From contig JASLYQ010000004.1 in NCBI GenBank assembly GCA_030739735.1, positions 1 through 64,000 of the forward strand: DNA of 64,000 nt, written 5' to 3'. The notes under the pieces are model-generated. The model saw nothing but the letters and a program-made list of their open reading frames with translations, had not been told where the DNA came from and did not search any database. This document shows positions 445 to 57,154 of this stretch, in pieces. Numbering within the stretch: the first letter of the stretch is position 1; the number at the start of each line of letters is the position of its first letter. The position numbers were made by a program, and so were the translations under genes. Origin of the DNA: Alphaproteobacteria bacterium. GTDB taxonomy: Bacteria; Pseudomonadota; Alphaproteobacteria; UBA7887.

Positions 445-862
445 AGCTTTTCCGGCGGCACACGTCAAACGTCCGTTTCTGGCCCCTTCTCTGTTTTCGC
501 CCACGCACCTTTCGTACTCCCAAAACCAGGTAGCACTAAAACGAGGCAGTGAAACGAGTACTGGCAGGCTGACTAAATAATGCTGTCTTGAATGCAGTTT
601 TCGGAGCATGTCTTTTGGGCCTCACGTTTCGTTGTGCTCAGCGTTAGCGCACTTAACAATACATCGAGAAAGTAAGGAGGTAAACACTCTCAAAAGTCTA
701 TATGTTTGGCAGGCTAGTTAAGCGATCAACGCTATTCTTCGTAGACAGTGATAAAGAAGAATATTACAAAATATAAAGCAAGTATCTACACTACCAACAA
801 AACGTAGAAAAAATAAACTATTCAATATGGAGGCTCCATAATTTTAGTATATTGGGATCACA
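445..862. other. AT-rich intergenic region between divergent genes
   Basis: About 420 bases between the MORN gene (minus) and the oxoprolinase gene (plus). No convincing coding frame on either strand. Bases about 620-860 are visibly AT-rich compared with the rest of the window. It must carry promoters for both divergent genes, but no unambiguous -35/-10 pair can be named. The only clear sequence structure is the short dyad at 826-840 listed separately. Confidence 0.6.
826..840. promoter_or_regulatory. Perfect 7-bp dyad upstream of the oxoprolinase gene
   Basis: The 15 bases form two perfect 7-base arms (TATGGAG / CTCCATA) around one central G. It lies 22 bases before the ATG at 863, between the AT-rich tract and the gene, so it could be an operator or a small RNA hairpin near the translation start. 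It also contains a four-codon ATG-TAA mini-frame, probably by chance. Function is inferred from position and symmetry only. Confidence 0.3.
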
Positions 863-29231: not shown

Positions 29232-30176
29232 ATGTGGGCGCCGGGTCTTTCTGAATTCTCTCATGCGGCTCCTCCGCTGGTGCTGCTGCTGGCGCTGGCG
29301 CTGGATTGGCTGATTGGCGATCCGGCGCCAGTCTATTGCCGGATTCCGCATCCGGTGGTGATGATTGGGCATCTTATCACCGCCCTCGATATGCGTTTTA
29401 ACCGTGGCTCGGCCTGGGTTGGTGCCGGTATGGCGGTCTTTGTCGTGGCGCTGTGTGCAGGCATCGGCTGGGCACTCGCCTGGGGCATGCGCACCTTCCC
29501 CGGCGGCTGGGCCGTGGAAGCGCTCGTCGCCAGCGCTCTGTTGGGCTATCGCGGCCTGCACGATGCCGCGCGGGCCGTGGCGCTTGGCCTGGAGGAAGAC
29601 AACCTCGAGGCGGGGCGCGCGGCGGCAACCCATATTGTCGGGCGCGACCCGGACAGTCTCGACGAGGCGGGTGTGGCGCGTGCGGCGATCGAGTCTGTCG
29701 CCGAGAACCTGAGCGATGGCGTTGTAGCGCCGCTCTTCTGGTATGTGCTGCTCGGCCTGCCTGGCATGCTGGCCTATAAGGCTGTCAACACCCTCGACAG
29801 CATGATCGGCCATCGCACACCGCGCCACAAGGCCTTCGGGAGGTTTGCTGCGCGTCTTGACGATGCCGCGAACTGGCCGGCAGCGCGGATCACCGGCATC
29901 GTGCTCTGCCTGGTCGGCGGCGGTTGGCGCGTGATGTGGCGCGATGCTCGCAAAACAATCTCGCCCAATGCCGGCTGGCCAGAGGCTGCCATGGCAGGCG
30001 CACTCGGTGTGGCTCTGGCTGGTCCACGGACCTACGCTGGCAAGGGGGTAGACGCGCCCTGGCTCGGCGATGGTCGGCGCGAAGCAACCCCCGCTGATAT
30101 TTATGGGGCGCTCAGGATCTACCGCCTGGTCGGCTTCGCGCTTGCCATTCTTCTCGGCTTGCTTGCTTTGCTGTGA
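29232..30176 (+). CDS. cbiB: Adenosylcobinamide-phosphate synthase (CbiB/CobD)
   Basis: 314 residues, integral membrane protein with about 4-5 helices. Family motifs: ALDWLIGDP near the N-terminus, RIPHPVVMIGHLI, the catalytic block ESVAENLSDGVVAPLFWYVL near 155 and NTLDSMIGHRTPRHKAFGRFAARLDD near 185. It attaches aminopropanol (phosphate) to cobyric acid to make cobinamide. The gene is inverted relative to the cob genes on either side: divergent from cbiX and convergent with cobQ (stops one base apart). A 31-base stretch of its 5' end (29298-29328) is duplicated exactly inside ccmI. The ATG at 29232 has no strong ribosome site. Confidence 0.93.
   Translation: MWAPGLSEFSHAAPPLVLLLALALDWLIGDPAPVYCRIPHPVVMIGHLITALDMRFNRGSAWVGAGMAVFVVALCAGIGWALAWGMRTFPGGWAVEALVASALLGYRGLHDAARAVALGLEEDNLEAGRAAATHIVGRDPDSLDEAGVARAAIESVAENLSDGVVAPLFWYVLLGLPGMLAYKAVNTLDSMIGHRTPRHKAFGRFAARLDDAANWPAARITGIVLCLVGGGWRVMWRDARKTISPNAGWPEAAMAGALGVALAGPRTYAGKGVDAPWLGDGRREATPADIYGALRIYRLVGFALAILLGLLALL
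29298..29328 (+). repeat. 31-base segment shared with ccmI (copy in cbiB)
   Basis: Exact match to 56039-56069, in the same reading frame, encoding the end of the CbiB-family motif ALDWLIGDP. Further, gapped similarity extends upstream to about 29267. Because the motif is a normal part of CbiB, this copy is taken as the source. Confidence 0.9.
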
Positions 30177-36947: not shown

Positions 36948-36969
36948 ACCTTCCCTCCGAAGATGACGG

Positions 36970-37145
36970 AATACGACGGGCCTGAGGAGGTTTCCTGGCT
37001 TCGGCTCAGCGGCTCGCGACGCCTTCCCGACACCGTCGTGCCAGTGGCCTGTCGCCGCAAGCCTAACCGTTTACAGTTGCGGGGGCAGCGCCGGACTGGT
37101 ATCGCGGCAGCGACACGTTACCGGCTTCCCTCTTCTCAGAGCTCC
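36970..37145 (-). promoter_or_regulatory. Cobalamin (B12) riboswitch upstream of cobW
   Basis: Read on the minus strand, conserved aptamer elements appear in the right order: AGAGGGAAGCCGGT near 37135-37120, GCTGCCCCCGCAACTGTAA (the core region, near 37090-37070), GCCACTGGCACGACGG, GTCGGGAAGGCG, and GCCGAAGCCAGGAAACC near 37005-36985 (B12 box region). It ends about 25-45 bases before the GTG of cobW, whose GGAGGG ribosome site lies in the expression platform. High B12 would therefore be expected to shut off translation or transcription of cobWNOQ. Confidence 0.92.
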
Positions 37146-37162
37146 GACCCTAACACGGCCGC

Positions 37163-37390
37163 TCAGGCCACGCCAAGCTCATCCCTGATGAGCGCGGCAT
37201 CGGTGGCCAGCGCCTGCATCTTGGGGGCGGTAAGATCGCGCGACACCAGTACCATGCCGCAATCGGTGCAAGGCACGATCAACTCGGCCGGCACGCTCCT
37301 GACCGGCGGCGATGGCAAGACGTACCGCGTCGGGCTTGGCTCTGGTCAGCTCGTCCGAATCCTTGAGGCGCCACGGCGCCCAAAGTGACT
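37163..37390 (-). pseudogene. 3' fragment of an unidentified gene (frameshifted)
   Basis: On the minus strand a 40-codon tail reads like real protein: AELIVPCTDCGMVLVSRDL then TAPKMQALATDAALIRDELG and a stop at 37163. It contains a CxxC pair. Upstream the protein-like reading (ELTRAKPDAVRLAIAAGQER) continues in a different frame, implying a frameshift near 37290, and no start is present. It ends just before the riboswitch. I do not recognise the family with confidence. Confidence 0.4.
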
Positions 37391-48748: not shown

Positions 48749-48781
48749 GGCTCGGCAACGAGATAGTGCGCATGGGTCTCT

Positions 48782-48880
48782 CCCTAGTGGTCCAAACTTG
48801 ACATATGGTACCCATAGGATCGCGTCTGGCGCCGCCCCGCCATCCTATGGGTACCATATGTCAAGTTCGAGCCACTAGGG
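48782..48880. repeat. 99-bp MITE-like inverted repeat
   Basis: Two 39-base arms (48782-48820 and 48842-48880) around a 21-base GC-rich loop. The inner 26 bases pair perfectly (48795-48820 with 48842-48867) and the outer 9 (CCCTAGTGG / CCACTAGGG) also pair perfectly, with a small bulge between. A 3-base direct repeat TCT flanks it on both sides, as expected of a target-site duplication. No T-run follows, so it is not a standard terminator. It sits 33 bases upstream of the LOG gene start and could also affect that promoter. No second copy was noticed in the window. Confidence 0.75.
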
Positions 48881-49097
48881 TCTGTCCGATGGCCTTTGGT
48901 CTTATGCTGCGGGGCAATCAGGTTATTGGTGACCATAGCTACGATAGGCTATTCGGCCTCGCGAGCTAGGCCCGCGGTGTCGATCCTTAGGGCTACCGCG
49001 CCTAGTTCACGTCCCTGTTGCAGTTGGCGAGTTCGCTCAAGCGGTCATAGCGCTCTACGGGCCGTACCATGGTTGCAATGGCACGGCCCACTCAGTG
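48881..49097. other. Intergenic remainder with short protein-like fragments
   Basis: Between the inverted repeat and the aldolase stop there is no intact gene. The minus strand has two short protein-like pieces in different frames (MVRPVERYDRLSELANCNRD, stop; and RTRQLQQGRELGAVALRIDT, stop). The plus strand has FGLMLRGNQVIGDHSYDRLF, then a stop. These may be remains of a mobile element or of a lost gene, but none can be assigned. Confidence 0.3.
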
Positions 49098-55302: not shown

Positions 55303-55760
55303 TAAGATGGGTTCTTGCCATCGCACTCGTTGCCTTGACGGCGCCGACTCTGGCTTTCGAGAATGACAAACCTTTGCCCGATTCGGCGCTGGAAGCGCGC
55401 GCGGTAGCGCTGGCAAAGGAGCTGCGCTGCCTGGTTTGCCAAAACCAGTCGATCATGGAGTCCGACGCCAACTTGGCCAAGGACCTGCGTCTGGTTGTAC
55501 GCGACCAAGTGGCGGCCGGCGCTAGCGACGATGAAGTACGCGATTATGTGGTTGCGCGGTATGGCGACTTCGTGCTGCTGCGCCCACCCTTCAAGCCCAA
55601 GACCTGGCTGCTCTGGCTGGGCCCCGTGCTCATCGTGGCCATCGGCATCTTTGGGTTGGTGCGCAGCCTGCGCCGGAGGACGGCATCGGTCGCGCCCGCG
55701 GCGCTCAGCGATGACGAGCGCGCTCGCGTGCAGCGCTTGCTGGACGACAATCCGCAATGA
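55299..55760 (+). CDS. ccmH: Cytochrome c-type biogenesis protein CcmH
   Basis: 153 residues: a signal peptide (VLAIALVALTAPTLAF), a periplasmic three-helix domain with the redox motif ELRCLVCQNQSIMESDA, and one C-terminal membrane helix (WLLWLGPVLIVAIGIFGLV). This is the short CcmH (CycL) form; the TPR part is the separate CcmI. Overlaps ccmI by four bases. Confidence 0.95.
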   Translation: MIRWVLAIALVALTAPTLAFENDKPLPDSALEARAVALAKELRCLVCQNQSIMESDANLAKDLRLVVRDQVAAGASDDEVRDYVVARYGDFVLLRPPFKPKTWLLWLGPVLIVAIGIFGLVRSLRRRTASVAPAALSDDERARVQRLLDDNPQ

Positions 55761-57154
55761 TCGTCTGGCTTGTCTTTGCCGGCTTGGCGCTGGTCGTCTC
55801 CGCGGCTCTTGCCCTGCCCATGTTGTGCCGAAGCAAGGCAGCCTCGACTCGAGCCGATTTCGACCTCGAGGTTTTCCGCGCCCAGCTTGCTGAGCTGGAA
55901 TCCGATCACGTCCGCGGTCTGCTCGGCAAAGCCGAGTTGGCGGCGGCGCGTAGGGAGATTGAGCGTCGTATGCTGGGGGCGGCACCCGATGCCGAGGCGG
56001 CACGAACCCCCGAGTGGGCTCCTCCGCTGCTGCTGCTAGCGCTGGATTGGCTGATTGGCGATCCGGCGCGGCGGGCCATCAGGCCGGCTCTGGCCGTGGC
56101 CGTGCTGGTGCCGTTGGCGAGCGTCTGGCTTTATGCCGTCATCGGCTTTCCCGAGGCACCTGATGTGCCGTTTGCCGAACGCGAAGGACCAGCGGGAATG
56201 CCGGCCGAGATGGATGCGGCGGTTGCCGGGCTTGCTGCGCGGCTCGAAGAGAATCCCAATGACTTCGAGGGCTGGTTCATGCTGGGGCGCTCCTATGGGG
56301 TCATGGAGCGCTATGACGATGCGGCGGCGGCGATGGCCCAGGCGGCCGCCCTAGAGCCCGAAAACATTGACGCGCTTGTCGCCTACGGCGAGGCCTTGGT
56401 CTTCGCCGCCGACGGTCTCGTCACGCCGCTCGCTGCGCTTCAGTTCGAGATCATCCTGGCGCTCGATCCCGGCAACGTGGCGGGCCAGTTATATCACGGC
56501 ACCGCACAGCTTCAGGCCGGTGACGGGACAGGGGCCTTTGCTACCTGGAGCGTGCTGGCGGTGAATTCACCGCCGGACGCGCCCTGGTTACCGTCGGTGA
56601 TGCAGCGTCTCGAGGTGCTCGCCGACAAACTCGACCTCGCCTTGCCCGAGGTGGAGATCGTTACGGCGCCGCCTGACCCGAGCGTCGAAGGCATGGCGGC
56701 AGCGGCGGAGATGCCCCCGGATGAGCAGGCGGTGCAAATCGAGACCATGGTTGCGCGCCTCGAGTCCCGTCTGGCCGAAGAGCCGGGTGATGCCGAGGGC
56801 TGGAAGCGCCTTGGTCGCGTCAAGCAAGTACTCGGCAATCTCGCGGCCTCGCGGGCGGCTTACGAGAAGGCGGTCGAGTTGTTGCCCGAGGACCTCGAGG
56901 CCCTGAAGAATTTGGCTGGGGTGATCGACGAGGCAGCCGGCGACGAGGTGCTGCCGGACGACGCGGTGGCGCTGTACGCGCGGGTTCTGGAGATTGATCC
57001 GAATGCCGCGGAAGCGCTTTGGTTCCTGGGTCTTGATGCTGCCCAGAATGATCGCAAGGAAGAAGCGAAAGCCTATTGGCGCCGCCTCCTCGCGCGCATG
57101 CCGTTCGGCAGCGAAGGCTACGACATGCTCTCGGAGCAGATCGACGCACTCTAA
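55757..57154 (+). CDS. ccmI: Cytochrome c-type biogenesis protein CcmI (CycH), with unusual insertion
   Basis: 465 residues. The N-terminal membrane helix (VFAGLALVVSAALALPML) and cytoplasmic loop with DLEVFRAQLAELESDHVRGL are as in CcmI. Then comes a second helix, IRPALAVAVLVPLASVWLYA, and a long periplasmic TPR region (about 150-465; NPNDFEGWFMLGRSYGVMER, EPGDAEGWKRLGRVKQVLGN, DPNAAEALWFLGLDAAQNDR) that holds apocytochrome c for CcmF/H. Between the loop and helix 2, at about residues 86-104, is an extra hydrophobic stretch WAPPLLLLALDWLIGDP. It matches the CbiB N-terminus and is not expected in CcmI; its DNA is identical to cbiB over 31 bases. The frame is intact, so the protein is probably made; the topology effect is unknown. 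Last gene of the ccm cluster. Confidence 0.93.
   Translation: MIVWLVFAGLALVVSAALALPMLCRSKAASTRADFDLEVFRAQLAELESDHVRGLLGKAELAAARREIERRMLGAAPDAEAARTPEWAPPLLLLALDWLIGDPARRAIRPALAVAVLVPLASVWLYAVIGFPEAPDVPFAEREGPAGMPAEMDAAVAGLAARLEENPNDFEGWFMLGRSYGVMERYDDAAAAMAQAAALEPENIDALVAYGEALVFAADGLVTPLAALQFEIILALDPGNVAGQLYHGTAQLQAGDGTGAFATWSVLAVNSPPDAPWLPSVMQRLEVLADKLDLALPEVEIVTAPPDPSVEGMAAAAEMPPDEQAVQIETMVARLESRLAEEPGDAEGWKRLGRVKQVLGNLAASRAAYEKAVELLPEDLEALKNLAGVIDEAAGDEVLPDDAVALYARVLEIDPNAAEALWFLGLDAAQNDRKEEAKAYWRRLLARMPFGSEGYDMLSEQIDAL
56039..56069 (+). repeat. 31-base segment shared with cbiB (copy in ccmI)
   Basis: Exact match to 29298-29328 in the same frame. A further 12-base block (GGCTCCTCCGCT) starting at 56017 matches cbiB from 29267, with two small in-frame gaps (3 and 3-6 bases) in the Leu-rich part between. 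As the encoded motif belongs to CbiB, ccmI is inferred to be the recipient. Confidence 0.9.

Follow-up and report, generated by a model that had tools for sequence, protein, structure and literature searches.

Small templated insertions usually come from laboratory screens or are inferred from clusters of changes; to our knowledge, few natural cases exist in which the donor and the direction are known and the reading frame is intact in both genes. One kind of event, short-patch double illegitimate recombination (SPDIR), is independent of RecA and is restrained by RecJ and other nucleases, and microhomology at the junctions is its usual mark. SPDIR was reported by Harms et al. (2016, PNAS 113:15066, cited in PMC7192050) under a title that names intragenomic segments as able to act as donors. 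Microhomology-mediated break-induced replication, i.e., template switching, is the subject of a separate model paper (PMC2621351). Here we compare with these events a tract common to two otherwise unrelated genes, ccmI and cbiB, in the genome of an uncultured alphaproteobacterium. Both genes lie in the stretch of 64,000 nt that was analysed (hereafter the window), and coordinates refer to it unless a contig is named.

The tract common to cbiB and ccmI

The gene ccmI follows ccmF, ccmG/dsbE and ccmH in a ccmFGHI cluster (neighbouring Pfam matches CcmH, PF03918, and CcmF_C, PF16327). Apart from this location, its product has the N-terminal part with two membrane helices and the C-terminal TPR domain (PF23914) of CcmI/CycH proteins. 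The cbiB product possesses PF03186 at residues 18-297 and an N-terminal D..(L/I)GDP motif that aligns in relatives, as in CbiB/CobD proteins. The window also contains a Cobalamin riboswitch (RF00174, 94 bits) at 36968-37181 on the - strand. The features concerned are the following.

29232-30176, + strand: cbiB (adenosylcobinamide-phosphate synthase), the donor; intact ORF, 314 aa, Pfam PF03186 with E 9.7e-99
29267-29328, + strand: donor tract in cbiB, 62 nt; N-terminal membrane segment PPLVLLLALALDWLIGDPA, with position and motif as in CbiB relatives
55757-57154, + strand: ccmI (cycH-type cytochrome c biogenesis protein), the recipient; intact ORF, 465 aa, Pfam PF23914 (TPR_CcmH_CycH) with E 1.8e-37
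56017-56069, + strand: shared tract on the recipient side, 53 nt; encodes the inserted peptide APPLLLLALDWLIGDPA (17 codons from 56018), which has no counterpart in 114 other CcmI
56039-56069, + strand: exact 31-nt match to 29298-29328, found by sequence comparison

The preliminary description of this DNA had reported the 31-nt identity, and on re-check it proved exact (GCGCTGGATTGGCTGATTGGCGATCCGGCGC, + strand in both genes). The similarity extends upstream with in-frame gaps, again as reported. Indeed, a 13-mer, GGCTCCTCCGCTG, is also common to both genes (56017-56029 and 29267-29279), and between it and the 31-mer ccmI is 9 nt shorter than cbiB, which the best global alignment resolves into in-frame gaps of 6 nt and 3 nt; other gap placements are possible because the intervening stretch consists of CTG/GCG repeats. 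The sole substitution outside the gaps in this alignment is a synonymous G>A (CTG>CTA in ccmI). Both copies are read in the same frame, as had been claimed, and both genes are intact; the tract is translated as APPLLLLALDWLIGDPA in ccmI and as APPLVLLLALALDWLIGDPA in cbiB, with 10 consecutive codons identical and one wobble difference in the remainder. The tracts are 26.7 kb apart on the same strand, and the whole-genome search for further copies of the 31-mer proposed in the preliminary description returned the cbiB and ccmI sites only (copy number 2). Outside the 31-mer, the gapless identity of the flanks is 0.42 and 0.31 over 90 nt.

The match is not due to chance, in agreement with the earlier claim: three order-5 Markov versions of 464 kb of the genome contained no exact repeat longer than 20 nt, against the 31 nt observed. 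Repeats in the real sequence were surveyed in 60 sampled stretches (1.264 Mb, under half of the genome), their causes being judged by eye on sequence and flank identity rather than by annotating every pair. In this sample, no exact match longer than the cbiB-ccmI 31-mer remains once those with an evident other cause (contig overlap, upstream repeat, tRNA or recognisable homology) are set aside. Repeats of greater or equal length were 77-nt overlaps of contig ends (the ends of C5 and C6; the end of C8 with window 568-644) and matches of 40 nt and 31 nt inside an upstream element. Somewhat shorter repeats (at least 25 nt) comprised local duplications with well alike flanks, the Walker-A motif of ABC transporters, tRNA and two 27-nt pairs. 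One of these pairs is GC-rich and is, at a guess, a VLRPGGR-like motif; the other (C7/C4) lies within a AGAGAGGAG start region resembling that of the upstream element.

The upstream element is present in six copies in this genome (G000), none of them in the window. Its core is CTTTGTGACAGNCGTCACTNCTCCATCACGC with the palindrome GTGAC-GTCAC, and similarity continues for ~60 nt further upstream and, in most copies, for ~90 nt downstream to the start AGAGAGGAG..ATG. The element resembles a promoter or 5' leader common to genes for exported proteins, secretion-type proteins and FecR-like proteins.

C2:56856-56886, C7:896-926, C7:10215-10245, C10:3288-3318, C23:41881-41911 and C4:98092-98122: copies of the upstream element (L226-L231)

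Furthermore, window 568-673 and C8:1-106 are 96% identical over ~106 nt (77 nt exactly), a two-copy repeat at an assembly break. A large inverted repeat is found at window 48771-48891 (54-nt arms, 83% complementary, 13-nt loop), and a 31-nt match occurs in four copies with 69-nt spacing at 89-326, probably as part of a repeat-protein gene. The cbiB-ccmI 31-mer is absent from the viral contigs searched, and phage records gave weak, chance-level matches only. A match of 87% over 31 nt in another genome (G009, contig C8) belongs to an ArsR-like regulator (sequence SLIGDPARANML) and was discarded as a chance or motif match.

Relatives of the two proteins and the direction of copying

In CbiB relatives, the motif is found at the homologous position, adjoining the start of the PF03186 domain, and is encoded by DNA different from that of the window (e.g., LIIDWLIGDPQWLYRRLPHP from a different bacterial family and LAIDAWLGDPAPLYRRVPHP from a fellow member of the same family). 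Relatives of CcmI were sought in genome contigs, where a search with a single sequence gave none and a search with the family alignment gave 80; the window protein was aligned with 38 and then with 114 other sequences, including family members and named records. DWLIGDP occurs in none of the 114 (a set of CcmI from outside the genus), and the whole segment is absent from each of them, which bears out the preliminary description in regarding the motif as proper to CbiB and foreign to CcmI. The loop between the conserved Arg71 and Tyr126 has 54 residues in the window protein versus 35-42 in most others, and the family alignment shows a 12-residue gap exactly at PLLLLALDWLIG, the family loop being at least 12 residues shorter. 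Loop length alone proves nothing, since one CcmI orthologue (L155) has a longer loop of unrelated sequence.

As the motif is ancestral in CbiB and absent from other CcmI, the comparison of relatives points clearly to cbiB as the donor and ccmI as the recipient. The cbiB genes of relatives differ at many positions and the genome holds two copies only, so the donor was the cbiB of this very lineage. The nearest ccmI orthologues compared are ~40% identical, none of them from the same genus, and the empty site is not visible in them. By its ten identical codons and the one wobble difference in the remainder, the copy is young relative to the split from the other family members, a bound that allows no finer dating. 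Of the "recent templated insertion" proposed earlier, the insertion from cbiB is therefore strongly supported, whereas "recent" holds loosely, by the ten identical codons.

The inserted segment in CcmI

An AlphaFold2 model of CcmI (23 sequences; mean pLDDT 85.5, pTM 0.44) has predicted helices at residues 2-23 and 103-128. The residues bearing the insert (84-106) have pLDDT below 50 and include a short helix of 9 residues at 91-99. No 19-residue hydropathy window above 1.0 arises from the insert and no new peak appears, the hydropathy score of helix 2 is equal with and without it, and Arg-Arg precedes helix 2 in either case. The insert is thus predicted to be a low-confidence linker, too short and too polar for a membrane helix. 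The missing hydropathy peak, the low pLDDT of the linker and the retained Arg-Arg make a third membrane crossing unlikely (such a crossing, if real, would place the TPR domain on the wrong side) and lend no support to the change in topology or function that had been suggested for the altered CcmI. The insert is probably near-neutral, with little effect on the protein, and the simplest view is that a linker whose length varies can accommodate it. It is quite improbable that the segment was kept because it is useful, i.e., as an amphipathic or membrane-touching piece from CbiB that alters the contacts of CcmI with CcmF/CcmH. If true, this would mean that a membrane protein acquired a ready-made segment from an unrelated protein in one copying event.

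Origin of the insertion and comparison with known events

The genome itself shows how closely the two tracts agree, which gene supplied the sequence, that the copy fits the reading frame and that no third copy exists. The event behind these features was very probably a single non-reciprocal templated insertion, in which ~53-62 bases from the 5' part of the genome's own cbiB were copied into ccmI. While ccmI was being replicated or a gap in it repaired, either the growing strand may have switched to cbiB or a short single strand of cbiB may have annealed across a gap via a few matching bases, after which synthesis went back to ccmI. The 9-nt difference is best attributed to slippage in the CTG/GCG repeats, either during copying or later in either of the genes. 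The insert would have survived, and been tolerated, because it consists of whole codons without a stop and falls in a cytoplasmic linker before membrane helix 2 whose length varies between orthologues.

Genes for DNA uptake and end joining bear on the source of the copied strand. In the 98.8%-complete genome, there was no match to ComEC (PF03772; positive in 10 of 14 control genomes), to DprA (PF02481; positive in 11 of 14) or to Ku (PF02735; control positive in one genome only, fitting its patchy spread), and RecJ is present. These results favour an internal event over DNA uptake and Ku-dependent joining. The 1.2% of the genome that is missing could still contain competence genes. Searches of eight family members, incomplete genomes among them, likewise gave no ComEC in seven, whereas it is present in all four searched class members outside the family; loss of DNA uptake across much of the family is possible. 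An origin from outside, through natural transformation with a short cbiB fragment released by a dead sibling and its incorporation by illegitimate recombination, is improbable given the missing ComEC and DprA matches and the lack of ComEC in most of the family, even though short-patch events during transformation are known, as cited in PMC7192050. An assembly or library chimera, with cbiB sequence spliced into ccmI in the computer or the test tube, might be considered for a draft of 69 contigs; it is very unlikely, as a chimera would not be expected to have two breakpoints 53 nt apart and then resume the original gene in frame. Moreover, the 77 nt that sampled contig ends have exactly in common suggest a de Bruijn assembler with k=77, and a tract of 53 nt, shorter than k, could then hardly have served as a branch point in the final graph, judging from the sequence alone.

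Two further explanations are both extremely unlikely. Leu-rich hydrophobic peptides recur in membrane proteins, and CcmI might have evolved the peptide independently or always had it; against this stand its absence from all other CcmI compared, the 5' 13-mer that matches as well, and the codons, since convergence on these ten residues would yield identical codons for all ten with a probability of ~10^-3.6. Small palindromic elements are located in frame inside genes of Rickettsia, a precedent for the idea that both genes took up a small mobile element or a member of a repeat family. Such an element is at odds with the two genomic copies, with the absence of terminal repeats and with the cbiB copy, which is ancestral family sequence rather than an insert.

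Among described events, SPDIR is the nearest to an intragenomic templated insertion in ccmI. As far as the citation in PMC7192050 conveys, in both a short patch of the same genome ends up in a locus unrelated to its source, and extended homology is lacking at either flank; in ccmI, the patch has an identifiable ectopic template (53 nt, cbiB, one substitution besides the gaps), and the flanks show no extended donor-recipient homology. By its title, however, the SPDIR report concerns substituted bases of the recipient, whereas ccmI looks like a net insertion, and the host, an uncultured alphaproteobacterium, gave no match to ComEC or DprA. The template-switching model (PMC2621351) resembles the present case in that a polymerase switches template at little or no homology, copies and returns, which leaves a templated insertion, but it was proposed for human rearrangements that are mostly far larger. 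Non-allelic gene conversion likewise copies non-reciprocally from locus to locus; it requires extended homology, which ccmI and cbiB lack outside the tract, and ordinary gene conversion is therefore unlikely. The "unusual route" of the preliminary description is apt in that such events are rare, but this type of event had already been described as SPDIR (cited in PMC7192050). Both the donor and the direction are clear, as is the reading frame, and the genome is a wild one without detectable uptake genes; this is what sets the case apart. It shows that a conserved gene for a membrane protein can accommodate such a copy even where DNA-uptake and Ku genes are not detectable, so proteins may acquire short peptide segments through internal template switching alone. 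The ccmI insertion is a new, clean natural example of a known but rarely documented copying accident.
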